The notes under the pieces are model-generated. The model was not told where the DNA came from. It saw only the letters and a program-made list of their open reading frames with translations, and did not search any database. DNA of 64,000 bases, taken from Roseateles koreensis (lineage in GTDB: Bacteria > Pseudomonadota > Gammaproteobacteria > Burkholderiales > Burkholderiaceae_C). The translations under genes and the position numbers were made by a program. Positions 49,099 through 64,000 of the stretch are shown here, in pieces (positions within the stretch are counted from its first letter, which is position 1; every line of letters begins with the position of its first letter). The DNA lies in assembly GCF_028595305.1 (NCBI RefSeq), contig NZ_JAQQXS010000001.1, positions 124,001 to 188,000 on the forward strand, written 5' to 3'.

Positions 49099-49170
49099 GC
49101 CAGGATTGTGCCGCAGTGATTCGGTCTCTTGTGCAGACTGTGTCGCTGGAGCACGGATAATCCGCGCCTC

Positions 49171-52100
49171 GTGAACGATCAGACCCCCACACCCAAACCG
49201 CCCGCAGCGCGCCGCCCCAGGCCCCAACAAGAGGCCCGAATCCAGTCGGCCAATCCGCTGCCGCCCATCACCTTCCCCGAGTCGCTGCCCGTCTCCAGTC
49301 GGCGCGAGGACATCGCCCGGGCGCTCGCTGAGCATCAGGTCATCATCGTCTGTGGTGAAACCGGCTCGGGCAAGACCACGCAGTTGCCCAAGATCGCCTT
49401 GGCCCTCGGGCGGGGGCGCGCCAATACGGGCAAGTTGATTGGCCACACTCAGCCGCGGCGCATTGCCGCCAGCAGCGTGGCCAAGCGCATTGCCGAGGAG
49501 CTGAAGACGCCACTGGGCGAGATCGTGGGCTACAAGGTGCGATTCCAGGACCGATTGCAGCCCGGTGCCAGCGTCAAGCTGATGACGGACGGCATTTTGT
49601 TGGCCGAGACGCAGACTGACCCGCTGCTCAAGGCCTACGACACCCTCATCATCGACGAGGCCCATGAGCGTTCGCTGAACATCGATTTTCTGCTCGGTTA
49701 TTTGCGCGAGGTGTTGCCGCGCCGGCCTGACCTGAAGCTAATTGTCACCTCGGCCACCATCGATGCCGATCGATTCGCCAAGCATTTCGAATCAGCCAAG
49801 GGGCCGGCGCCGGTGCTGATGGTTTCCGGTCGTACCTTTCCGGTCGAGCAGCGTTACCGTCCTTTTGAGGAGTCACGCGAGTACGACCTGAACAACGCCA
49901 TCTGCGACGCGGTGGACGAACTTTGGCGCGAGGGTGGTGGCGACGTGCTGGTGTTCTTGCCTGGCGAGCGTGAAATCCGCGAGGCGGCGGAGGCCTTGCG
50001 CAAACACCACCCGCCGGGTGTGGAGGTGCTGCCCTTGTTTGCGCGCTTGTCGCAGCAGGAGCAGGACAAGGTGTTCGAGCCGCATGGCCAGCGCCGCATC
50101 GTGCTGGCGACCAACGTCGCTGAAACCTCTCTGACCGTACCCGGCATCCGTTATGTGATCGATCCCGGCACCGCTCGGGTCAAGCGTTACAGCTATCGCA
50201 ACAAGGTTGAGCAGTTGCAGATCGAGGCGGTCAGCCAGAGCTCGGCCAACCAGCGTGCGGGCCGCTGTGGCCGGGTGGCTAACGGCATTTGCATACGGCT
50301 TTACGACGAGAAGGACTTTCTCGCGCGCCCGCGCTTCACCGACCCTGAAATTTTGCGCAGCTCGCTCGCCGGCGTGATCTTGCGCATGAAGTCGCTGGGC
50401 CTGGGGCAGGTGGATGAGTTTCCCTTCATTGAGCCGCCGCCGCGCAAGGCTGTGGCTGACGGCTACCAACTGTTGCAAGAGTTGGGCGCAACGGACGAGC
50501 TCAACGACTTGACGGCCTTGGGCAAAGAGCTCTCGCGCCTGCCCCTGGACCCGCGCGTGGGCCGCATGATTTTGGAGGCGCGCAATCGCGAGGCGCTGAA
50601 CGAGGTGCTGATCATCGCCAGCGCGCTCTCGGGGCAGGACGTGCGCGACCGCCCCATGGAGCAGCAACAAGCGGCCGACGAAAAGCACAAGAAATTCGAC
50701 GACGATAAGAGCGAGTTCCTGGGTTACTTGAAGATCTGGAAATGGATCGAAGAAGCCAAGGGCGGGCACGGCGAACATAAACTTTCAAACCGGCGGTACG
50801 AGGCCCTGCTGCGTGAAAATTTTGTCAGCCCGCGCCGTGTGCGCGAGTGGAAAGATATCTACTCCCAACTGCACACCGTGGTGGCTGAACAGGGCTGGCG
50901 CCTGAATGGCAGCCCGGCCACCTACGAGCAGCTTCACCTCAGCATGCTGGCCGGCCTGCTGGGCAATCTGGGCTGTAAAAGCGATGAAGACGAGTGGTAC
51001 CTCGGCGCGCGCGGCATCAAGTTCTGGCGTCATCCTGGCGCCCACCTGAGCAAAAAGCCGGGGCGCTGGATTGTGGCTGCCGAGTTGGTGGACACCACGC
51101 GCTTGTTCGGCCGTGGCATCGCTAACATCGAACCTCAGTGGCTGCCCGGCATCGCCGGCCATTTGATCAAGACCCAGTTGCTGGAGCCGCACTGGGAGAA
51201 AAAGGCGGCTGAGGTGATTGCGCTGGAGCGGGCCACGCTCTACGGCATCGTCATCTACAGCAACCGCCGCGTCAACTTTGGCAATGTGGATGCCAAGGCC
51301 GCCCGTGAAATTTTTATCCGCGAGGCCCTGGTGAATGGCGAATGGGAAAGCCGTTTGCCCTTCATCGCTCACAACCAGAAGCAGATCGCCAAGGTTGAAG
51401 AGCTGGAGCACAAATCGCGCCGCCAGGACGTGCTGGTGGATGATGAGTTGATCTTTGCCTACTACGACAGCCAGTTGCCGCCCGAGGTGTGCTCGGGGGC
51501 GACGCTGGAGCGTTGGTACCGCCACGCCTCAAGAGCTGAGCCCAAGTTGCTGCATCTGAGCCGCGAAGAGCTGATGCGACATGAGGCGGCTGGAGTCACC
51601 AGCAACGCCTTCCCCAAGATGGTTCGGCTGGGCGGCGTGGACTGCGCGGCGGAGTATTTGCACGCACCTGGCGATGCCCGTGATGGCGTGACGGTGACGG
51701 TGCCCATCTACGCCTTGAACCAGGTCAGCGAAGAACGTGCCGAGTGGCTGGTGCCCGGCATGCTGGATGCCAAGGTCCTGGCCTTGCTGAAGAGCCTGCA
51801 TCAACGCCCGCGTTCGCGCCTGGTGCCGCTGCCGGACTTCGTCAAAGAGTTCGCCGCGACTCAAGGTTTTGCGCAGGGAGCATTGATTGAGGTCTTGCTC
51901 AAGGCCGTGAAGGAGCGCACTCAGCTGGCCGTGCAGCGCAATGATTTCAAGCTGGAGCAGTTGCAGCCTCATCTGTTCATGAACTTCCGCATCGTGGATG
52001 AGCATGGGCGGCAATTGGGGCAGGGCAGAAATCTGGCAGCGCTGAAGTCTGAGTTGGGCGGGCAAGCGCGCTCGGCCTTTCAGGCGTTGGCGGCGTTGAA

Positions 52101-53076
52101 GATGCCGGCTGTGTCTGAGGGGGCAAAGCCAGCCGCGCTGCCGCCGGTTGCTGCGGGCGGCATTCGTGCTGAAGTGCGTGCGCCCGCCGGGGCGCTAAAG
52201 CAGGGGGCATCCATCCCGCCCAAGGCAGCGTCGAGCTACACGGCTTGGACCTTCGGCGAGTTGCCCGAGTTGATGGAAGTGAGCCGTGGGGCGCAAAGTC
52301 TGATCGGCTTCCCGGCCCTGCTGGACCGTGGCACGCATGTGGAAATCGAGGTGTTTGACGAGCCCGAGGTGGCCGCCGCCAAGCACCGCCTGGGCCTGCG
52401 CCGGTTGTTGGCCTTGCAGCTCAAGGAACCGCTCAAGTTTCTGGAAAAAAACATTCCCGATCTGCAAAAAATGTCGGTGCTGTTCATGGGGCTGGGCACT
52501 GCGGAGGAGTTGCGCGACCAGGTCATCGGCGTGGCCCTGGACCGTGCCTTCCTGGTTGAGCCCTTGCCCAAAGATGAGTTTCAGTTCAAAGCAAGGCTGG
52601 AAGAAGGGCGCTCGCGCCTGAATCTGATTGCCCAGGAAGTGGCGCGTCAGACCGGCGTGGTGCTGCAGGAGTACACCGCTGCTTCTCGCAAGCTCAAGGA
52701 CGCGCGCGCGGCCAAGGAGGTGGCGGAGGACGTCACTGCTCAGTTGCAACGTCTGGTGCCCAAGAACTTCGTCACCGGCACACCCTGGGCACAGCTCCAG
52801 CATTTACCGCGTTACCTGAAGGCCATCACCGCCCGCCTGGACAAACTGCGGGCCGATGCGGCGCGTGATGCCAAGCTCTTGGCTGAGTTGCGCCCCCTGG
52901 AGCAGCGATACCTGCGCCGCGTGATTGAGCTGAAAGGGCAGGCGGATGCCCGATTGACTGATTTTCGGTGGCAGTTGGAGGAGTTGCGGGTCAGCCTGTT
53001 CGCCCAGGAGTTGCGGACGCCGCAGCCCGTCAGCGTCAAACGTTTGGAGAAGGTTTGGGCGCAAATTTCGGCCTGA
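49171..53076 (+). CDS. hrpA: ATP-dependent RNA helicase HrpA (DEAH box)
   Basis: Large helicase; the E. coli enzyme resolves stalled ribosomes. GTG 49171 gives 1301 residues; a TTG at 49129 is possible, and neither has a clear ribosome site. Motifs: IIVCGETGSGKTTQLPK (Walker A), TQPRRIAA, DEAHERSLN, TSATID and QRAGRCGRV in the helicase core (about 45-390), then HA2/OB-fold regions and the long C-terminal DUF3418 domain. Size fits HrpA, not the shorter HrpB. Cytosolic. Confidence 0.95.
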   Translation: MNDQTPTPKPPAARRPRPQQEARIQSANPLPPITFPESLPVSSRREDIARALAEHQVIIVCGETGSGKTTQLPKIALALGRGRANTGKLIGHTQPRRIAASSVAKRIAEELKTPLGEIVGYKVRFQDRLQPGASVKLMTDGILLAETQTDPLLKAYDTLIIDEAHERSLNIDFLLGYLREVLPRRPDLKLIVTSATIDADRFAKHFESAKGPAPVLMVSGRTFPVEQRYRPFEESREYDLNNAICDAVDELWREGGGDVLVFLPGEREIREAAEALRKHHPPGVEVLPLFARLSQQEQDKVFEPHGQRRIVLATNVAETSLTVPGIRYVIDPGTARVKRYSYRNKVEQLQIEAVSQSSANQRAGRCGRVANGICIRLYDEKDFLARPRFTDPEILRSSLAGVILRMKSLGLGQVDEFPFIEPPPRKAVADGYQLLQELGATDELNDLTALGKELSRLPLDPRVGRMILEARNREALNEVLIIASALSGQDVRDRPMEQQQAADEKHKKFDDDKSEFLGYLKIWKWIEEAKGGHGEHKLSNRRYEALLRENFVSPRRVREWKDIYSQLHTVVAEQGWRLNGSPATYEQLHLSMLAGLLGNLGCKSDEDEWYLGARGIKFWRHPGAHLSKKPGRWIVAAELVDTTRLFGRGIANIEPQWLPGIAGHLIKTQLLEPHWEKKAAEVIALERATLYGIVIYSNRRVNFGNVDAKAAREIFIREALVNGEWESRLPFIAHNQKQIAKVEELEHKSRRQDVLVDDELIFAYYDSQLPPEVCSGATLERWYRHASRAEPKLLHLSREELMRHEAAGVTSNAFPKMVRLGGVDCAAEYLHAPGDARDGVTVTVPIYALNQVSEERAEWLVPGMLDAKVLALLKSLHQRPRSRLVPLPDFVKEFAATQGFAQGALIEVLLKAVKERTQLAVQRNDFKLEQLQPHLFMNFRIVDEHGRQLGQGRNLAALKSELGGQARSAFQALAALKMPAVSEGAKPAALPPVAAGGIRAEVRAPAGALKQGASIPPKAASSYTAWTFGELPELMEVSRGAQSLIGFPALLDRGTHVEIEVFDEPEVAAAKHRLGLRRLLALQLKEPLKFLEKNIPDLQKMSVLFMGLGTAEELRDQVIGVALDRAFLVEPLPKDEFQFKARLEEGRSRLNLIAQEVARQTGVVLQEYTAASRKLKDARAAKEVAEDVTAQLQRLVPKNFVTGTPWAQLQHLPRYLKAITARLDKLRADAARDAKLLAELRPLEQRYLRRVIELKGQADARLTDFRWQLEELRVSLFAQELRTPQPVSVKRLEKVWAQISA

Positions 53077-53235: not shown

Positions 53236-55185
53236 ATGTCAGCATCTGAGAATCCGCAGTCCCCCACTGGTGCAGCGTCCAAGCCTGCGCCCATGCGGCG
53301 CTTTGGGCGTTTTGAGTTGCGTGCCTTGCTCAGCAAGAGCGCGCGCAGCATGCTGTGGCTGGTGTTTGACCCGCGACTGGGTCAGGAGCTGATTCTGTGC
53401 TTGCCGCGTACAGCGCCCAACAGCCCAGGGGCACTGGCGCACTGGTTGAAGATGGCCAATGGTGTGGCGCGCATCCAGCATCCCAATATTGCCCATGTGA
53501 TTGAAGTCGGGCAGGTTGAACAATGGCCCTTTATCGCCTACGACCGCGCGTTGGGCGAAACCTTGGATGAGCGTCTGGCCCGCCAAACCGCTCCCTTGCC
53601 TGTGGAGGCCGCCGACTGGGTGTGCCAATTCCTGGAGGGGCTGGCCTTCGCGCATGAGGCCGCACACGCGCATCGCGACATCCAATGCGCCAGCTTGGTG
53701 ATCAGTTCCACCAACCAGGTCCGGGTGCTCGGCCTGGAGGTGGCGCAAGAGGTGTTCCCGGCCACGCTTGATTTCAATGCTGTGACTCGTCGTGCGGTGC
53801 GGGAGTCGGCTGAAGAGGACGTGTTGTGTGTGGGCTTGTTGCTGCACCGCATCCTGAGTGGGCGGCAAGTGCTGGAGCAGGCCGACCTGCAAGCCGTGGT
53901 TCAGCAGATGCAGCCCCTGGGCCGTGAGTTGGTTCGTATGGGGTGGGAAACGCCGCACCCCATCCCCGAGCCCTTGCGTGCCATTTGCAATCGTGCGACC
54001 GATCGGCAGACGCGCCAGCGCTATCACATGGCCCGCAGCTTCTTACGGGCGCTGGACGGCTGGCGCACCGCTGTGGCGCAGGACCAAGGCGGGCCGATCG
54101 CTTTGTTGATGGATAAGTTGCAGCGCATTGGCCATTTACCCAGTACCAGCACGGCCTTGCTGCGCGTGGGGCAGTCTTCGGCGATGGAGCGGCAGCACAC
54201 CAGTGCCTTGTCGGGTCTGGTGTTGCAAGACATGGCGCTGAGCCTGGAGTTGCTGCGGCGCGTGAACAACTCGCTCCAGCAGCAGGGATCGGCGCGTGAT
54301 GGCACGGTGCTGAACATGCAGCGGGCCATCGCCATGCTGGGTTTGGAGGGGGTGCAGCAGGCAGCCCGGGCGCTCAAGCCCTGGCCCGGTCCGCTGAGCC
54401 CGGTGCAGGCGGAGTTGCTCAAAAGCTTGATGAAGCGTGTTCAACATGCCGGGCAGATCGCGCAGGGCCTGCGTCCCGCAGGCTATGACGCGGAGGTGGT
54501 CTACCTGATCACCGTGATGCAAAACCTGGGCCGATTGCTGTTGCAATACCACTTTCCGGATGACGCACAGCAAATCCGTCAACTGATGCTTCCGCCGGAG
54601 CCCACCGCTGACAACCCGCACCCAGCGTGCATGAGCGAGCAGGCGGCAGCCTTCGCAGTTCTGGGTTGCGATCTTGACAGCCTGGGCGCGGCGGTGGCGC
54701 GGCATTGGAGCTTGGGTGATGAGTTGCTCCACATGATCCGCCGCCAGTCGCCGGAGGCCCCCGTTCGCAGCACCGATAGCGATGCTGACCTGCTGCGGCT
54801 CACCTGCAGCCTGGCCAATGAGTTGGTTGATGCCTTGCAATACCCTGAACCGCGCCGTCAGGCCAGCATTGAAGCTGCGACCCGGCGGTACGCGCGCCCC
54901 TTGGGTGTGGGTTTGCGTGAAATCTACAACGCTGTGCATCCCGCCGCCCCTCAAGCGGAGGACGAGGTAAGCGCCCCCCCCGATCATTTGACTGGCCGCG
55001 AAGGTGGCGATGACGCCATGCCTGTCGGCCCAATGGCGGCAGCTCAAAAAGACGCTCAAAAAGCTGAAGCAGATGTGTCACATACAGCGCCTGCGGTTGC
55101 AGGTAGCGTTCCCGCGCCCAAGGCGTCTGCATTGCGCGGGCGGCTGGCGTCTCTTCCATCCTCGGGCCGCAGTGGCGGTCAATAA
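53236..55185 (+). CDS. Pseudokinase-HDOD domain protein
   Basis: No known function. The 649 residues start with a protein-kinase-like domain (about 24-275) that has lost key residues: no VAxK lysine (ELILCLPRT instead), no glycine loop (LLSKSARSML), the catalytic loop is HRDIQCASLVI (Lys and Asn of HRDLKPxN changed), and DFG is replaced by LGLE. It is therefore probably a pseudokinase. An HDOD domain follows (about 285-500; RIGHLPSTSTALLRVG, LVLQDMALSLELLRRVNNS). The tail (about 570-649) is Ala/Asp-rich and disordered. It ends 8 nt before the related kinase gene, with which it shares HDOD sequence (NLGRLLLQYHFPDDAQQIR). Confidence 0.82.
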   Translation: MSASENPQSPTGAASKPAPMRRFGRFELRALLSKSARSMLWLVFDPRLGQELILCLPRTAPNSPGALAHWLKMANGVARIQHPNIAHVIEVGQVEQWPFIAYDRALGETLDERLARQTAPLPVEAADWVCQFLEGLAFAHEAAHAHRDIQCASLVISSTNQVRVLGLEVAQEVFPATLDFNAVTRRAVRESAEEDVLCVGLLLHRILSGRQVLEQADLQAVVQQMQPLGRELVRMGWETPHPIPEPLRAICNRATDRQTRQRYHMARSFLRALDGWRTAVAQDQGGPIALLMDKLQRIGHLPSTSTALLRVGQSSAMERQHTSALSGLVLQDMALSLELLRRVNNSLQQQGSARDGTVLNMQRAIAMLGLEGVQQAARALKPWPGPLSPVQAELLKSLMKRVQHAGQIAQGLRPAGYDAEVVYLITVMQNLGRLLLQYHFPDDAQQIRQLMLPPEPTADNPHPACMSEQAAAFAVLGCDLDSLGAAVARHWSLGDELLHMIRRQSPEAPVRSTDSDADLLRLTCSLANELVDALQYPEPRRQASIEAATRRYARPLGVGLREIYNAVHPAAPQAEDEVSAPPDHLTGREGGDDAMPVGPMAAAQKDAQKAEADVSHTAPAVAGSVPAPKASALRGRLASLPSSGRSGGQ

Positions 55186-55193
55186 GGGCCTCT

Positions 55194-57659
55194 TTGACTC
55201 ACGTGCCACCTCGTCCCCCATCGATGTCCGTTGCCGGAGGCATTGATGTTTTGCCTCAATTGGGGCGCTTTCGCCTGTTGCGACGATTGGGCGAAGGCGC
55301 GCAGGCCACCGTTTGGCTGGCACACGACTCCCGTTTGGACCGCGAAGTTGCGCTGAAGGTACTTCGCCCCGGCACCGACCCGGGCAGTGTGGGTGAATGG
55401 TTGCACGAGGCGCGTGCCGTGAGCCGCTTGACACACCCCTTCATCGTGCCGATTTTTGAAGCCGACACCCAGGGCGGCCAGTCCTATATGGTGTTTGAGT
55501 ATGTGCCGGGGGGCACCTTGACCGATCACCTGCGTGCGCACAAAAATTTGCCTGCCCGCTCAGTTGTGGAGTTATGTATGGATGTCCTGGATGGACTTCA
55601 CGCGGCACACCAGGCCGGCGTTGTCCATCGGGACTTGAAACCCAGCAATATCCTCATCGATGCCAAGGGCCGCGCCCGGGTCATGGACTTTGGCATTGCG
55701 GGTCGTGTGGTCAGCGATGCGAGCCCCGCAGCGCAGGCGCATCGCAGCGAGCGCATCGTGGGCACGCCGGGCTACCTCTCGCCGGAAGCGGCGCGTGGCG
55801 CAGCACCCAGTCCGCAGATGGACGTGTTTGCGGTCGCCATCATGATGGTCGAAATGCTCAGTGGCAAGCGCCTCAACTACGACCCTGACCCCTGGCGGGC
55901 GGTGCAGCGCGTGATTGATGAAGATTTGCAAATTCCGACCCACCTTGGCCCTGATGTGGATGACGCCTTGCGTGCCATTTTGCAGCGCGGCCTGGCACGT
56001 GACCCCATGCAGCGCTGGCCGGACGCACGCGCCATGCATGACGCTTTGGCAGTGTGGTTGAACCCCAGCCAGGCTGAAGACGCGGGCGGCGCGGCTGAAG
56101 GCGCGGCCTTGGAGTTCTTGCTTCGGCGGATGCAGCATCAAGGCGACTTCCCGGCGATGTCCGACGCGGTCGGGCGAATTCAGCGCCTGACGATGTCGGA
56201 GAGCGAGAGCCTCAGCAGCCTGTCCAATGAGATATTAAAGGACGTGGCCCTGACGCAAAAGCTGCTGCGCTTGGTCAATACTGTTCGGTTCAGCCATGCA
56301 GGGGCGGGCGGCATCACGACGATTTCACGGGCCGTGGCTTTGGTGGGGTTTGGTGGCATCCGCAATCTGGCTTTGTCTCTGATCTTGCTGGAACGCATGG
56401 AGAACAAGACCCATGCCCAGCAATTGCGGGAGGAATTTCTTCGTTCTTTGATGGCTGCATCGCTCGCACGCGAGCTGTGTCTCGATGCACAGGGGGGTGA
56501 GGAGGCATTTCTTTGTGCCATGTTCCATAACCTCGGGCGTGCACTGACCGAGTTCTATTTTCCGGATGAAGCTCGGCAAATTCGTCGCATCACCCGCCCC
56601 GAGCGAGACATACTCATGGGCAAGGACGCGCCAGCGCCGGTGTCTGAATCGGTGGCCTCCACGCGGGTACTGGGGATGAGCTATGAGCGGCTGGGCATTG
56701 GGGTTGCGCGCAAATGGGGGTTGCCTGAGAGCTTGCAGCTCAGCATGCGGCGCCCAGAGGGCGAGCCGCCGGTGCGTCAGCTTGCCAATACGGATGAACG
56801 CCAACGTTGGTTGGCGCATGCCGCCAACGATGTGGCCGACGTGATTTTGCGAACGGAGCCTGCCCAGGCGCATGCGCGAGTGCACGCTATGGCGCAGCGT
56901 TATGCCCGGTGCCTTGGCGTCAGTGCTGAGGTGTTTGACCATGCGGCGGATCAAGCACGCCAACGCCTGGCTCAAATGACGGCGGCAATGGATTTGTCAT
57001 TGCCCAAAAATTCACCGGCCCTGCGCTTGTTGGCCCCGCTTACACCTTCGGCTGACGATTCTTTGTCAGCCCTCCAGTTGCAGGCCACTCAGGTGATTGA
57101 GCCGCCTTCCGGCCAGAGCCAGCAGCAGCAAAGTCGGGAGCATGCGGTCGAGATTTTGGCTGCCGGCATTCAAGACGTGAGCAACGCCATGGTGGAGAAC
57201 TTCAAGCTCAATGAAGTGCTGCGCATGATTCTGGAGTCCATCTTTCGGGCCTTGGGTTTTCGGCGCGTGGTGTTTTGCCTGCGTGATCCCAAGCAAGACT
57301 GCCTGACGGGGCGCTTCGGATTGGGGCAAGACGTCGAAACCGTGGTGCCTTTCTTCAAGATTGCCCTGGCGCCTTCCACGCGCGCCAATTTGTTTGAGGC
57401 GGTCTGCCAGCGTGCGGCCGACACCTTGATTGCCGACGCCTCGGCTGAGAAAATCGCCCAGCGACTGCCCGCTTGGTACAGCGGCGCGGTCAGTGCTCGC
57501 AGCTTCTTGTTATTACCCCTGGCCCTGAAAGGCAAGACCTTTGCCTTGATTTATGCCGACAGAGATCATGCCGGTGAACTGGATTTGGGTGAGAAAGAAC
57601 TCTCGCTGCTGCGCACCTTACGCAATCAGGCCGTGATGGCCTTCCGGCAGCCTCAGTAG
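55194..57659 (+). CDS. Serine/threonine kinase-HDOD-GAF domain protein
   Basis: Predicted active Hanks-type kinase with two further modules. In the 821 residues, the kinase domain (about 24-290) has LGEGAQATVWLA, Lys55, Glu72, VVHRDLKPSNILID (Asp147, Asn152), Asp165-Phe-Gly and GTPGYLSPEA. An HDOD domain lies at about 305-520 (MFHNLGRALTEFYFPDEARQ) and a GAF-like domain at about 655-815 (VNEVLRM-type helix, FRRVVFCLRDP, FALIYADRDHAGELDLGEKE). No membrane helix, so cytosolic. The start is a TTG at 55194 or an ATG at 55224 (MSVAGG); the weak site leaves this open. Gap to the upstream pseudokinase gene is 8 nt, so they form an operon. Confidence 0.85.
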   Translation: MTHVPPRPPSMSVAGGIDVLPQLGRFRLLRRLGEGAQATVWLAHDSRLDREVALKVLRPGTDPGSVGEWLHEARAVSRLTHPFIVPIFEADTQGGQSYMVFEYVPGGTLTDHLRAHKNLPARSVVELCMDVLDGLHAAHQAGVVHRDLKPSNILIDAKGRARVMDFGIAGRVVSDASPAAQAHRSERIVGTPGYLSPEAARGAAPSPQMDVFAVAIMMVEMLSGKRLNYDPDPWRAVQRVIDEDLQIPTHLGPDVDDALRAILQRGLARDPMQRWPDARAMHDALAVWLNPSQAEDAGGAAEGAALEFLLRRMQHQGDFPAMSDAVGRIQRLTMSESESLSSLSNEILKDVALTQKLLRLVNTVRFSHAGAGGITTISRAVALVGFGGIRNLALSLILLERMENKTHAQQLREEFLRSLMAASLARELCLDAQGGEEAFLCAMFHNLGRALTEFYFPDEARQIRRITRPERDILMGKDAPAPVSESVASTRVLGMSYERLGIGVARKWGLPESLQLSMRRPEGEPPVRQLANTDERQRWLAHAANDVADVILRTEPAQAHARVHAMAQRYARCLGVSAEVFDHAADQARQRLAQMTAAMDLSLPKNSPALRLLAPLTPSADDSLSALQLQATQVIEPPSGQSQQQQSREHAVEILAAGIQDVSNAMVENFKLNEVLRMILESIFRALGFRRVVFCLRDPKQDCLTGRFGLGQDVETVVPFFKIALAPSTRANLFEAVCQRAADTLIADASAEKIAQRLPAWYSGAVSARSFLLLPLALKGKTFALIYADRDHAGELDLGEKELSLLRTLRNQAVMAFRQPQ

Positions 57660-57943: not shown

Positions 57944-59620
57944 ATGGACAGGACAGAAGGGCTCACCGTGGCCGAGCCCGGTGCGGCTTCGTACGCGCTG
58001 GGCGCTCAAAATTTGCTGCCATCGACGCCCAAGTTGTGGCGTATCGATTGCTCCGACGCCAAGCATATGGCGTGGCTGACCTATGCGTATCTGGGGTTTC
58101 ACCTGTTCTTGTGGACCCTGCTCGCCACATTGAGTCACCGCGCACCGCCCTGGGACAATATTGAACAATTGGTGTGGATGCAGTCTCTGGAGTGGGGCTA
58201 CTACAAACACCCGCCATTCCCGACTTGGTGGGTGCATGGCTGGACCGAGTTGCTCGGTCGTTCGATGTGGGTGACCTTCTTCTCCGCACAAATGAGTGTG
58301 GTGTTGATGCAACTATTTGTCTGGCGAATTGCGTTGCTGGTCACTTCGCCAGCGCGTGCGTTTGCCTCGGTGGTATTGAGCAGCTTGCTCATCTATCACG
58401 GTGTCCACGGCATCATGGCCAATCACAACACCTTGCAATTGATGCCGGTGGGTTTGCTGCTCTGGCTGTCTTTGCTGGCGGTGCGTGAAGGGCAGATGTG
58501 GCGGTGGGCCTTGGTGGGCTGCGCGGCGGCGCTTTGCTTGTTGTCAAAATACAGTGCCTTGATTTGGCTGGCCATTCTGGGCGTGTGGATGCTGCAGGAC
58601 AAGCGCATGCGTTCCTGGCGCGCCTGGGGCGGGGTGACGCTGGCGGTGGCAATCTGCGCCATTTTGGTGTCGCCCCATATCAGCTGGCTGTTGCATGACG
58701 GCTCACCCGGTTTGAACTACGCCAGCAAGGCCATTCAAGGGCAGAACGACCCGGACTCGATTGGCCACTGGGGGCGCTTGGGGAAATTTTGGCTGATTCA
58801 GTTCGCCCGGGTGCTGCCCATGCTGCTGGGCCTGGGTCTGGTCAACTGGCTCTTGCTCCGGGCGAACAAGCGCGATTTGCTGGCGCAGGGCGGTGCCGGG
58901 GTATCTGGCGCCCTACAGGCTGACGGACGGGATCAGTTGTCGGCCAGCCCTGAATGGCGGTTCGTTTTGTTCATGGGCCTCGGTCCCATGCTGCTCACGA
59001 CTGTGCTGGGTGTTGTGGGCGTTCGACTCGGCGCAGCCTGGGCCGCCACCTATTTTGTGATGGGCGGTATCTTGGCTCTGGTGAGCTTGCCGATGAAGCC
59101 GCCGGCCGCGACGCCGCAGTTTGTACGCAGCGTGTTGTGGGCGGGCATTGCCATGGAGTTGTTGCTGGCCATCGGCATGGCCTTGGGCAGTGGCTGGTTG
59201 GCTGATGTGGCGGGGCGGGCCGCGCGGTCGAATTTTCCGGCCGCGAAATTGGCCCATCAATTGGACGAGGTCTGGGACGCGCATGGCGCGACGCCCATGC
59301 GTGTTGTGGTGGGTGAAACCTGGCTGGCCGGCAATGTTTCAGTGCGTTCCAAATACCAGCCTTTGGTGTACATCGACGCCGACGCGCAGAAGTCACCGTG
59401 GATCAAGCCCCATATGCTGGAAGACTGTGGCGCCCTGATCGTGGTTGACCGGCGTGACATGAATGTGCCCCTGTCGCCGTCCTTGCAGCAGTTGGTGGCG
59501 CAGGCGCAATTCACGGGTGATGTGAAGATGCATTGGACCCGGTTTGCCAACAGCGGCCCAGAGTTGGATGTGATGTGGGCGATCTTGCCGGCACACAACC
59601 CGGCGGCTTGCCCGCGTTGA
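57944..59620 (+). CDS. GT39/PMT-like membrane glycosyltransferase (ArnT-type fold)
   Basis: Integral membrane protein with about 11-12 hydrophobic helices; relatives transfer sugars from undecaprenyl phosphate to lipids or proteins in the periplasm. The 558 residues hold the first-loop acidic motif (WDNIEQLVWMQSLEWGYYKH, with Asp and Glu near 70) and PPFPTWWVHGW, both typical, and the family helices ANHNTLQLMPVGLLLWL. The C-terminal 150 residues form a soluble region (VVVGETWLAGNVSVR, YIDADAQKSPWIKP). Acceptor and donor unknown. Starts at ATG 57944 without a strong ribosome site; lies alone between the kinase gene and mrp. Confidence 0.78.
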   Translation: MDRTEGLTVAEPGAASYALGAQNLLPSTPKLWRIDCSDAKHMAWLTYAYLGFHLFLWTLLATLSHRAPPWDNIEQLVWMQSLEWGYYKHPPFPTWWVHGWTELLGRSMWVTFFSAQMSVVLMQLFVWRIALLVTSPARAFASVVLSSLLIYHGVHGIMANHNTLQLMPVGLLLWLSLLAVREGQMWRWALVGCAAALCLLSKYSALIWLAILGVWMLQDKRMRSWRAWGGVTLAVAICAILVSPHISWLLHDGSPGLNYASKAIQGQNDPDSIGHWGRLGKFWLIQFARVLPMLLGLGLVNWLLLRANKRDLLAQGGAGVSGALQADGRDQLSASPEWRFVLFMGLGPMLLTTVLGVVGVRLGAAWAATYFVMGGILALVSLPMKPPAATPQFVRSVLWAGIAMELLLAIGMALGSGWLADVAGRAARSNFPAAKLAHQLDEVWDAHGATPMRVVVGETWLAGNVSVRSKYQPLVYIDADAQKSPWIKPHMLEDCGALIVVDRRDMNVPLSPSLQQLVAQAQFTGDVKMHWTRFANSGPELDVMWAILPAHNPAACPR

Positions 59621-60918: not shown

Positions 60919-61247
60919 AATCGGTGGGCGGCTCCTTGGCGCCTTGACGCCGTGCCTCCTTGCATCCTTTGCAATCTCCATGTAAGTTTCAGATTCGAAG
61001 ATTAAAAGTTAACCCGCCGGAGCGATGATGCGCTGGTGCGGTATTGCATACTCAGGACAGCAGGGGGGGCCTTTTGTGCCAGGGCCCATAGTTGCCTGAT
61101 ATGAGTGGCAATACTGATGACGTTGGTCGGTGGAATATGTCCCACTGCCAAGATCGCGGTAAGCGTTTTTTTCGAAGTTTCAGGGCGTTCGCGAAGGCGC
61201 CTGGACGACTGGGAATCTTGGGTTGATACCCACAGGAGGCACATACC
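60919..61247 (+). promoter_or_regulatory. Upstream region of the formate dehydrogenase gene
   Basis: No gene is supported in these 329 nt. The last part holds a TGGGT-TGAT-ACCCA hairpin (61219-61232) directly before a full AGGAGG ribosome site (61234-61239), 8 nt from the ATG. No FNR or sigma-54 site is convincing. Confidence 0.4.
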
Positions 61248-64000
61248 ATGGATATGAACCGGAGGCATTTCTTCCGGGTGAGTGGGGCGGGGCTGTTGGG
61301 CTCCAGCTTGGTGGCCTTGGGCTTTTCGCCCACGCAGGCCTTGGCCGAGGCGAGAAACTTCAAGCTCGCCCGCGCTACCGAAACCCGCAGCACCTGTCCC
61401 TATTGCTCCGTCGGTTGCGGCATCCTGATGTACAGCTTGGGCGACAAGGCCAAGAACGTCGTCAGCGAGATCATGCACATCGAGGGCGACCCCGATCACC
61501 CTGTCAACCGCGGCACGCTGTGCCCCAAGGGCGCCGGTCTGCTGGACTTTGTGCACAGCAAGAACCGCCTGAAGTGGCCCGAGATTCGCGAGCCTGGCGC
61601 CACTGAATGGAAGCGTGTCAGCTGGGATGAAGCGATGGATCGTCTGGTCCGGCTGATGAAGGCCGACCGCGACGCCAACTTTGTCGCTCAAAACGCGGAC
61701 GGCAAGACCGTCAACCGCTGGCTCACCACCGGCATGCTGTGTGCTTCAGCGTCCTCCAACGAAGCGGGCTACATCACCCACAAGGCGATGCGCTCGATGG
61801 GGATGCTGGTCTTCGACAACCAGGCGCGCGTTTGACACGCCCCGACGGTGGCCAGTCTGGCCCCGACGTTTGGGCGCGGTGCGATGACCAACCATTGGGT
61901 GGACATCAAGAACGCCGATCTCGTTTTGATCATGGGCGGCAATGCCGCCGAGGCCCACCCCTGCGGCTTCAAATGGGTGATTGAGGCCAAGCACAAGAAC
62001 AAGGCCAAGCTGCTGGTGATCGACCCGCGTTTCACGCGTTCGGCTGCCATGAGCGATTACTACGCACCGATCCGCTCGGGGTCTGACATTGCCTTTTTGG
62101 GTGGGGTCATTCACTACCTGTTGTCTAACGACAAGATCCAGCACGAGTACGTCAGCAAGTACACCAACGCCAGCTTCATCATCAATGAAGGCTTTGGCTT
62201 CGAAGATGGCCTGTTCTCGGGCTACGACGAAGCCAAGCGCAAGTACGACCCGGCCAGCTGGGCGTATGAGCTCGACGACAAAGGCTTTGCCAAGGTCGAT
62301 GAGACCCTGCAGCATCCGCGCTGCGTGCTCAACGTGATGAAGCGCCACTACGAGCGCTACACACCTGAGGTGGTCAGCAACATCACCGGCACCCCCAAGG
62401 ACAAGTTCCTCAAGTGCTGCGAGATGATCAGCGAGACGGCCAAGCCGGGCAAGGTCATGACCGTCATGTACGCCTTGGGCTGGACCCAGCACAGCTACGG
62501 CGCTCAGATGATTCGCACCGGGGCCATCATGCAGCTGTTGCTGGGCAATATCGGCCTGGCGGGCGGCGGCATGAATGCGCTGCGCGGTCACTCCAACATC
62601 CAGGGCCTCACCGACCTGGGTCTGCTCTCGACCTCGTTGCCGGGTTATATGACCCTGCCGCGCGAGACTGAGCAGGATCTGGAGACTTACTACAAACCGC
62701 GCGCCACCAAGCCCTTGCGCCCTGGCCAGATGAGCTTCTGGCAGAACTACCCCAAGTTCTTCGTCAGCCTGCAGAAGTCCTGGTGGGGCAAGGCCGCCAC
62801 CGCTGAGAACGAGTGGGCCTATCACTACCTGCCCAAATGGGATAAGGCCTACGACGTGCTGCAGGCCTTCGAGATGATGGGGCAGGGCAAGCTCAACGGT
62901 TACATCTGCCAGGGCTTCAACCCGGTGGGTTCCTTCCCGAATAAGAAGAAGATCATCGCCGGGCTGTCCAAGCTCAAGTATCTGGTCATCATTGATCCGC
63001 TCAACACCGAGACGGCTGAGTTCTGGAAAAACTTCGGCGAGCACAACGACGTCAAGAGCGAAGAGATCCAGACCACGGTGTTCCGTTTCCCCAGCACCTG
63101 CTTTGCCGAGGAGGAGGGCTCCATCACCAACTCCGGCCGTTGGCTGCAGTGGCACTGGCAGGGCGCCGAGCCTCCCGGCGAAGCCAAGGGCGACCCGGAA
63201 ATCATCGCCGAGCTCTTCACCCGCATGAAGGCCGCGTACCAGAAAGAGGGCGGCGCCTTCCCGGACGCCATGCTCAACCTGACCTGGCCCTATTTGATTC
63301 CCAACGCGCCCTCAGCCGAAGAATTGGCCAAGGAAGCCAATGGCCGTGCACTGGCCGATTTGCAAGACCCCAAGGACCCCAACAAGCTCCTGGCCAAGGC
63401 TGGCGAGTTGCTGCCGGGCTTTGCTCTGCTGCGCGATGACGGCTCCACCGCCAGCGGCTGCTGGATCTTTGCGGGCAGCTGGACACAGGCGGGCAATCAA
63501 ATGGCCCGGCGCGATAACAGCGACCCCTACGGCATCGGCCAGACCCTCAACTGGGCCTGGGCGTGGCCGGCCAACCGGCGGGTGCTCTACAACGCCGCGT
63601 CCTGCGATTCGACGGGCAAGCCCTGGAATCCCAAGCGGCGCCTGATCGGTTGGAACGGTGAGCGTTGGACGGGCTCCGACATCCCTGACATCCGACCCGA
63701 TGCCAACCCAAACGACCCGGATCGCGTCAACCCCTTCATCATGACCGCCGAAGGGGTGGCCCGTTTGTTCGCGCCCACCGGCTTGGTCGACGGTCCCTTG
63801 CCGGAGCACTACGAGCCCTTCGAGTCGCCCCTGCCCAACAACCCCATGCACCCCAAGAACGACAAGGCGCGGGCCAATCCCGCGGCACGTGTGTTCAAGG
63901 GCGATATGGAGGCTTTCGGCAAGCCCAAAGACTTCCCTTATGTGGCGACCAGCTACCGGCTGACCGAGCATTTCCACTACTGGACCAAGAACTGCGAAAG
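61248..64000 (+). CDS. fdnG: Formate dehydrogenase-N/O alpha subunit, selenoprotein (partial, C-terminus outside window)
   Basis: Periplasmic molybdopterin-selenoenzyme that oxidises formate and feeds electrons to the quinone pool. The first 195 codons end at an in-frame UGA (61833-61835); read as selenocysteine, the frame stays open to the window end (about 917 residues, of roughly 1015 in the family). Support: Tat signal (RRHFFRVSG), the [4Fe-4S] motif CPYCSVGCG with LCPKGAG, the context NQARV-Sec-HAPTVASLAPTFGRG, and strong similarity after the UGA (MGGNAAEAHP, RGHSNIQGLTDLGLLSTSLP, YRLTEHFHYWTK). Codon 196 is the same position as Sec in E. coli FdnG, as I recall. A bSECIS hairpin follows. 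The fdnH, fdnI and sel genes are presumably beyond the edge. Confidence 0.95.
61833..61868 (+). promoter_or_regulatory. Bacterial SECIS element with Sec UGA codon in fdnG
   Basis: UGA at 61833-61835, then a hairpin: GG (61847-61848), bulged U (61849), GGCC stem (61850-61853), loop AGUCU (61854-61858), GGCC (61859-61862), CC. The bulged U (14th nt after UGA) and loop GU (20th-21st) sit at the same spacing as in E. coli fdhF, from memory. Confidence 0.85.

Follow-up and report, generated by a model that had tools for sequence, protein, structure and literature searches.

Results

Organization of the locus

The window, i.e. the whole 64,000-nucleotide stretch of Roseateles koreensis DNA that was analysed, carries two adjacent open reading frames on its forward strand (53236-57659), and both were located where an earlier note, made from the sequence alone, had placed them. 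The first frame (53236..55185) encodes P0001, a protein of 649 aa with Pfam Pkinase and HDOD matches that is described below as a pseudokinase-HDOD protein. The second (55194..57659) encodes P0002, an active-type kinase-HDOD-GAF protein as judged from its frame, its Pfam matches and a comparison of starts, with a length of 821 aa when counted from a TTG codon. The 8-nt gap previously proposed between the two genes holds if translation of P0002 begins at this TTG (55194), which is preceded by a Shine-Dalgarno sequence that looks passable by eye. Nevertheless, the ATG at 55224 is the more likely start, since many of the first 25 P0002 orthologues compared begin some 8-20 residues before the LGRF motif, one of them as MSVAAAID; the gap would then be 38 nt.

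The pair is flanked by a large ORF (49129-53076), recognised by its sequence and presumably encoding an hrpA-type helicase, and by a PMT_2 glycosyltransferase-like gene (57944-59620). This PMT_2-type neighbour is uncommon, being present in 4 of 200 genomes of the order at 1e-25. Two ORFs further downstream on the reverse strand, 61002-61691 and 61746-63155, have no Pfam match at E 0.01 and may not be genes. Named relatives at 81-85% identity place the host, a bacterium of freshwater or soil type, near Paucibacter and Roseateles. Across the loci that carry the pair or the first gene, the neighbours are, as far as we recognise them from sequence, hrpA, addAB, trxA-rho-rpmE and dnaX-ybaB-recR, together with argA, which has Pfam AA_kinase and GNAT matches. 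Since these look like housekeeping genes, the neighbourhood provides no guilt by association. A defence system (PADLOC PD-T4-6, mad6) was considered and rejected: the best stretches listed end by residue 350 in both P0001 and P0002 and cover the kinase domain plus the linker that follows, i.e. they are generic kinase-domain matches.

The first protein combines a degenerate kinase domain with HDOD

The degenerate kinase domain of P0001 spans approximately residues 23-281 (53302..54078, forward strand), as delimited by the alignment to PknB, the orthologue columns and the AlphaFold blocks; the Pfam Pkinase match itself (E=2.8e-10) covers residues 77-265. It is followed by the HDOD domain at residues 301-504 (54136..54747; PF08668, E=1.7e-14) and by a C-terminal tail, residues 571-649 (54946..55182), whose pLDDT under 50 indicates that it is probably disordered. 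When P0001 is aligned to PknB and P0002, the VAIK lysine is replaced by Cys55, the HRD-loop Asn by Ser153 and the DFG motif by Gly-Leu-Glu (166-168); its glycine loop has degenerated, its HRD has not.

These losses are shared by the orthologues. In the close set of 60 sequences (59 named loci and the window, with L149, a Brevibacterium locus with generic kinases, left out), the lysine is lost in all 60, being replaced by Cys in 39, Met in 13, Ser in four, Val in three and Ala in one. The DFG Asp is likewise lost in 60/60 (59 Gly, one Arg) and the DFG Gly is Glu in 60/60; the HRD-loop Asn is kept in two and the HRD Asp in 57 of the 60. The divergent set consists of 33 first-gene rows from 33 genomes, one of them gapped at the catalytic sites, and here the lysine and the DFG Asp are kept in 0/32, the Asn in 5/32, the DFG Gly in 10/32 and the HRD Asp in 31/32. 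The helix-F Asp is retained in 59/59 close and 32/33 divergent orthologues. The activation segment, measured from the DFG position up to the helix-F Asp, counts 30 residues in P0001 vs 46 in P0002, and 29-38 (median 30) vs 38-64 (median 42) among their respective orthologues (59 rows each). P0001 lacks a GAF domain and keeps the skeleton of the kinase fold, namely the HRD His, the HRD Asp and the helix-F Asp.

The AlphaFold2 model of P0001, built on a 45-row alignment with a mean pLDDT of 72, has a kinase fold. Its kinase blocks reach pLDDT 77-94, except for 171-190 (60-72) and 221-240 (57-63), and block values in the HDOD part range from 41 to 93. Its fold matches include PknA and PknB (Z 21-22, rmsd 3.8-5.1). 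Residue 55 lies in the same strand (50-57) in the P0001 and P0002 models, and the strand ahead of the DFG position occupies 162-164 in P0001 and 161-163 in P0002. A check for restored catalytic residues accordingly found none in the sequence alignments, and the models agree at the level of strands and residue ranges. The proposal that the first protein had lost the catalytic Lys, Asn and DFG is thereby confirmed by the alignments, and the sequence comparisons support the view that P0001 is a pseudokinase, deeply conserved as such. With a maximum 19-residue hydropathy of 1.5, P0001 has no membrane-like stretch.

The two proteins share 30% identity across P0001 residues 19-574 (E=1.5e-58), far beyond chance. 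Both HDOD domains pass the curated PF08668 cut-off of 22.9 bits, with scores of 54.2 bits in P0001 and 99.1 bits in P0002. The HDOD motif NLGR.L..Y.FPD.A.QIR that had been noticed as common to the two genes is present in both, with one deviation: P0002 has Phe where the motif has Tyr. Trp491 of P0001 and Trp508 of P0002 are invariant within their own orthologue alignments, the former in 59/59 close and 33/33 divergent orthologues.

The second protein is an intact kinase-HDOD-GAF protein

P0002 is composed of a kinase domain (55272..56027; Pfam Pkinase, E=1e-45), an HDOD domain at residues 320-519 (56151..56750; PF08668, E=2.9e-28) and a GAF domain at residues 672-816 (57207..57641; PF01590, E=4.5e-5), the latter modelled as an alpha/beta fold with pLDDT 83-94. 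Its catalytic residues are intact: K55, E72, HRD 145-147, N152, DFG 165-167 and E198. Among 59 orthologue rows with letters, window included (a 60th row is gapped), the first two loop Gly, the Lys, the helix-C Glu, the HRD Asp, the Asn and the D, F and G of DFG are kept in 59/59 and the HRD Arg in 58/59. The claim that the second protein keeps all catalytic residues and adds a GAF domain therefore stands. Its best PDB sequence matches are StkP, PknB and PknA. One locus from a MAG (L093, 7123-9711) has its active gene in two separate frames, possibly through an assembly error.

Origin by duplication

To place the two genes relative to each other, a kinase-domain tree of 90 rows was rooted on eight other kinases of the same genome; the truncated second gene of L165 (L165_P1) and the duplicate L158 were left out. 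The 29 first-gene rows form one clade (100/100). Together with the active genes of the family and two other dead copies they make up a group of 50 rows (100/99), which is nested inside an order-wide radiation of kinase-HDOD-GAF genes. By this topology the gene was duplicated in or close to the family's stem and catalysis was then lost once, and the duplication suspected from the shared architecture is thus borne out. P0001 descends from a duplicate of a kinase-HDOD-GAF gene and lost its ATP- and metal-handling residues once. Within its own genome, only P0002 matches P0001 at 1e-10 among the best 6 of 26 candidates. A phylogeny of the HDOD domains, suggested as a further check, also recovers the first-gene rows as one clade (97/88; 31 first-gene rows, with L165_P1 entering as a truncated second gene), but the HDOD tree alone leaves the duplication unsettled, as its outgroup failed to root it and two of the four other HDODs of the host genome, on very long branches, fall in an unresolved fork with both groups.

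The first gene appears to be confined to the family. A P0001-type gene outside it was sought in the order sample (200 genomes, five of them from the host's family; at most the best six candidates per genome) and rejected: the best outside match among those listed has E=9.1e-51 and 27% identity, and 28/28 outside-family loci fetched (L003-L030) score higher against P0002 than against P0001. Genes of the second type are spread more widely, with 75 of 200 genomes in the order sample at 1e-60, some of them kinase-less or partial, and 17 of 229 in the class sample at 1e-80, including the window's own and one more of the family.

Other copies in this line have decayed as well. In G415 (L156, 4206-6521) and G485 (L159, 579-2906), the active gene is immediately followed by a second, degenerate kinase-HDOD-GAF copy; these two copies lost their catalytic motifs in another way and form their own clade (100/100), a separate decay. 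In another family, a tandem kinase-HDOD copy (L171, 3436-5232, genome G122) has Asn-Phe-Gly in place of Asp-Phe-Gly and keeps the Lys and the HRD-loop Asn. Kinase-less HDOD-GAF proteins occur too, for instance at L187, L202 and L203. A Roseateles-type pair at 71% identity was also encountered in a MAG titled Methylotenera (L148), perhaps on a mis-binned contig.

Occurrence with and without the active gene

The distribution of both genes was assessed in 299 genomes of the family, using a 1e-60 threshold and the best four candidates per genome, so that the counts are lower bounds for both genes. P0001 matched 116 genomes, 13 of which were excluded because a second-type gene had been cross-hit (in twelve the match sits where P0002 matches too, and G457 was inferred from its weak E-value of 6.8e-61); G381 was counted as first-type from a reading of its locus. 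The first gene is thus present in 103 genomes and a kinase-bearing second-type gene, called by match start and not by each active site, in 105: the two occur together in 76 genomes, the first alone in 27, the second alone in 29 and neither in 167. The odds ratio for co-occurrence is 16, uncorrected for phylogeny. Where both genes are present, they are adjacent on one strand with the pseudokinase gene first in 75/76 genomes and in 59/59 named loci; in the sole exception, G476, they lie at the ends of two contigs. An operon-like unit is therefore supported wherever the two coexist. Co-occurrence, which the earlier note had put forward as a check across Burkholderiales, holds within the family for these 76 genomes but not for the 27 of 103 in which the first gene has no kinase-bearing partner.

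Absence of the partner was examined more closely. In 24 of the 27 genomes every candidate was scored and no full-length partner was found, only the pseudokinase gene and other kinases; four of the 24 (G366, G251, G443 and G272) carry a kinase-less HDOD-GAF gene or part of one. The remaining three (G231, G355 and G436) carry a kinase-less HDOD-GAF gene elsewhere. Completeness of at least 90% with at most 5% contamination applies to 22 of the 27 (19 of the 24, and G231, G355 and G436). Neither do the flanks of 18 partner-less loci contain a partner; three of these loci, L199, L206 and L207, run into a contig end 0.9 to 1.8 kb downstream. Of 24 partner-less loci examined, 13 have the pseudokinase gene behind a gene that we take to be addA-like and that also precedes it in two distant pairs, L168 and L169; in the other 11 it lies elsewhere. 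The shared upstream gene suggests in-situ loss of the partner.

Selective constraint and rate covariation

Pairwise Nei-Gojobori dN/dS was calculated for 17 close loci, whose pairs are not independent. The dead kinase domain has a median of 0.149 (136 pairs) and the active one of 0.217 (133 pairs), with 0.184 for the P0001 HDOD and 0.178 for both the HDOD and the GAF of P0002. The dead kinase domain is under purifying selection in these close relatives. In four same-genus pairs of partner-less loci, it gives 0.073 (L154/L162), 0.142 (L192/L196), 0.274 (L151/L152) and 0.432 (L198/L206). All four stay below 1; the two higher values, which mean weaker constraint than in the pair-bearing group, leave room for relaxation in partner-less species. 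Between partner-less genera, the values (eight lowest-dS pairs per domain) climb as high as 0.82 in the kinase and 1.14 in HDOD, but saturation makes them unreliable.

Both domains of P0001 covary in rate with the P0002 HDOD at partial r 0.62-0.63 when HrpA is the sole control (53 loci). Under the same control ArgA, a gene without reason to covary, gives 0.41-0.55, and with HrpA and ArgA together the values drop to 0.46-0.49 (43 loci), hardly above the control-gene baseline.

Association with flagellin

Flagellin_N was found in 234 of the 299 family genomes, namely in 101 of the 103 with the pseudokinase gene vs 133 of the 196 without it, uncorrected for phylogeny and genome size. The two exceptions are G302 and G367, which are 76% and 83% complete. 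All 27 partner-less genomes have flagellin. In the order sample, flagellin occurs in 68/75 genomes with second-type genes vs 66/125 without, again uncorrected for shared ancestry and genome size; seven of the 75 genomes with a kinase-HDOD-GAF-type gene thus lack it. Among the 125, it is present in 22 of 38 with other P0001 matches (mostly Ser/Thr kinases) and in 44 of 87 without any match. With its 4 of 200 genomes, the PMT_2-type neighbour was too rare to serve as a control for this association. At two loci of one family (L230 and L231, genomes G047 and G091), a flagellin gene and what is presumably a fliD-fliS-like cluster precede the kinase-HDOD-GAF gene by about 8-9 kb; the genes in between would include an mfd-like one.

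Discussion

Comparison with known systems

Fusions of known domains and partnerships of dead and active kinases are already known kinds. Searches of open-licence PMC text turned up no account of a pseudokinase-HDOD family. The 2025 review of the field (PMC12599244), the available parts of which present bacterial pseudokinases as largely unexplored experimentally, does not contain the term HDOD in its text. It reports that PknB phosphorylates the tail of the MviN pseudokinase, whereupon FhaA is recruited, and that MviN and some active PknB-type kinases dimerise back to back.

MviN (Rv3910 of Mycobacterium tuberculosis, ActPs3) is the closest pseudokinase to P0001 among the fold matches listed (Z 21, rmsd 2.8-2.9). 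Both have a kinase fold without the ATP and Mg residues and a shortened activation loop, and both are paired with a PknB-type kinase, which for MviN is its partner according to the available text of PMC12599244. MviN, as portrayed there, is a membrane protein of cell-wall synthesis that acts via FhaA and has a degraded HRD, whereas P0001 is fused to HDOD, keeps its HRD, has no membrane-like stretch and descends from kinase-HDOD-GAF genes. Hence, the activation-loop deletion that is a hallmark of ActPs3 is seen in P0001 (30 vs 46 residues), but the complete degradation of motifs including HRD is not (HRD Asp in 57/60). The DLHK pseudokinases of proteobacteria, in the part of O'Boyle et al. 2025 available, resemble P0001 in keeping the HRD Asp, in their degraded Lys and DFG and in having no membrane span; they differ in keeping the HRD-loop Asn and in being most often linked to helicase domains, whereas the P0001 type has this Asn in 2/60 and HDOD instead. 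This distinction was drawn from their description, the kinase tree containing no DLHK sequence. As for P0002, its catalytic motifs are as in the Hanks-type kinases PknB, PknA and StkP, but its C-terminus is HDOD-GAF, with no PASTA match in Pfam.

HDOD is a non-catalytic, HD-related output domain. The claim that HDOD proteins elsewhere act in motility agrees with the literature, as far as its text was available: effects on motility or attachment are reported for SadB, GsmR and HdpA (PMC6543031), for PSPTO_4229 (PMC11813219), for two Pf-5 genes and Cj0248 (PMC11004494) and for I2285, for which a conserved Trp and a Tyr matter (PMC9040570), and the phenotypes of SadB, GsmR, HdpA, I2285 and Cj0248 concern motility, attachment or biofilm. 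A conserved HDOD Trp is required by GsmR as well. In the same portions of the literature on these five proteins, a kinase or pseudokinase fused to HDOD is not described.

Possible roles of the two proteins

The reading that we favour, with a confidence just short of even, is that P0001 is a non-catalytic docking adaptor whose HDOD is the output, which belongs to the same pathway as the kinase in genomes that have the two and which may be linked to motility. A partner protein would dock on the kinase fold of P0001, and the output would come from the HDOD. Where both genes exist (76 of 103 genomes), P0001 and P0002 would belong to one pathway and presumably to one operon. The GAF of P0002 may sense a small-molecule or redox cue that changes the state of the active kinase, and P0002 could then engage or phosphorylate P0001, much as mycobacterial PknB phosphorylates MviN. 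In species that have lost the active gene, P0001 would keep working with other inputs. Flagellar motility, or some behaviour connected with it, would be the likeliest output. Since about a quarter of the species with the pseudokinase gene lack the active one, P0001 probably has a job of its own, and this job is perhaps linked to swimming.

The earlier note had seen in the pair an arrangement for allosteric control of the kinase by the pseudokinase, for instance with P0001 as a dedicated subunit that switches P0002 on or off in a PknB-type kinase-kinase heterodimer. Adjacency in 75/76 genomes, the odds ratio of 16 (phylogeny uncorrected), the PknB-like fold of the P0001 model and the back-to-back dimers of MviN and some active kinases (available text of PMC12599244) all speak for it. 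The main result against an allosteric-only model is the occurrence of the first gene without a kinase-bearing partner in 27 of 103 genomes, as a subunit controlling only its neighbour should not so often occur alone; the 13 of 24 partner-less loci behind the addA-like gene, with their suggestion of partner loss in place, point the same way. P0001 is thus unlikely to serve solely as an allosteric subunit of P0002, and we give the dedicated subunit roughly one chance in five. A somewhat lower probability attaches to P0001 as a substrate and phospho-scaffold, in which P0002 would phosphorylate its tail or activation remnant to recruit a third protein, as PknB does with MviN. This model would draw on the MviN precedent (PMC12599244, in the text available), on MviN being the closest pseudokinase among the fold matches listed and on the long, probably disordered tail with its Ser and Thr; against it, the activation remnant of the divergent L168 has no Thr when read by eye, and partner-less species have no P0002-type kinase.

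It is improbable that the kinase domain of P0001 is vestigial, at least in partner-less species, and that only HDOD matters. A relic of this kind would be in line with the 11 of 116 family genomes with a second-type match that hold only a kinase-less HDOD-GAF, and with the dN/dS of 0.27 and 0.43 in two of the four same-genus partner-less pairs; yet among close relatives constraint on the dead domain is no weaker than on the active one (0.149 vs 0.217), and the fold-critical residues are retained in divergent relatives too. Kinase-like proteins such as SelO and SidJ have non-canonical catalytic activity. That P0001 acquired a new activity of this sort seems very improbable: the HRD Asp is indeed kept in 57/60 and 31/32, but no row with letters at these sites has the Lys or the DFG Asp, and the replacement of the DFG Gly is not one acidic residue family-wide.

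Returning to the docking adaptor, a broader and decidedly tentative view, in which we place less confidence, extends it to the whole kinase-HDOD line. HDOD would be the output of this line and the kinase would be dispensable: tandem copies turned into pseudokinases at least twice, a third copy, in another family, is partly degenerate, and some proteins are kinase-less. The oldest and most widespread dead copy, i.e. P0001, would then be an independent, non-catalytic regulator of flagellar behaviour, which in many lineages persisted after its active parent had disappeared.

The pseudokinase P0001 is datable, since a single duplication in a family's stem gave rise to it, has a matched control next door in its active parent, has relatives with and without this parent, and comes with a candidate phenotype. 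Since these features come together, the role of a kinase fold without catalysis is testable here. The function of P0001 would also bear on how HDOD works as an output domain, the mechanism of which, according to the available text of PMC6543031, is not yet established.
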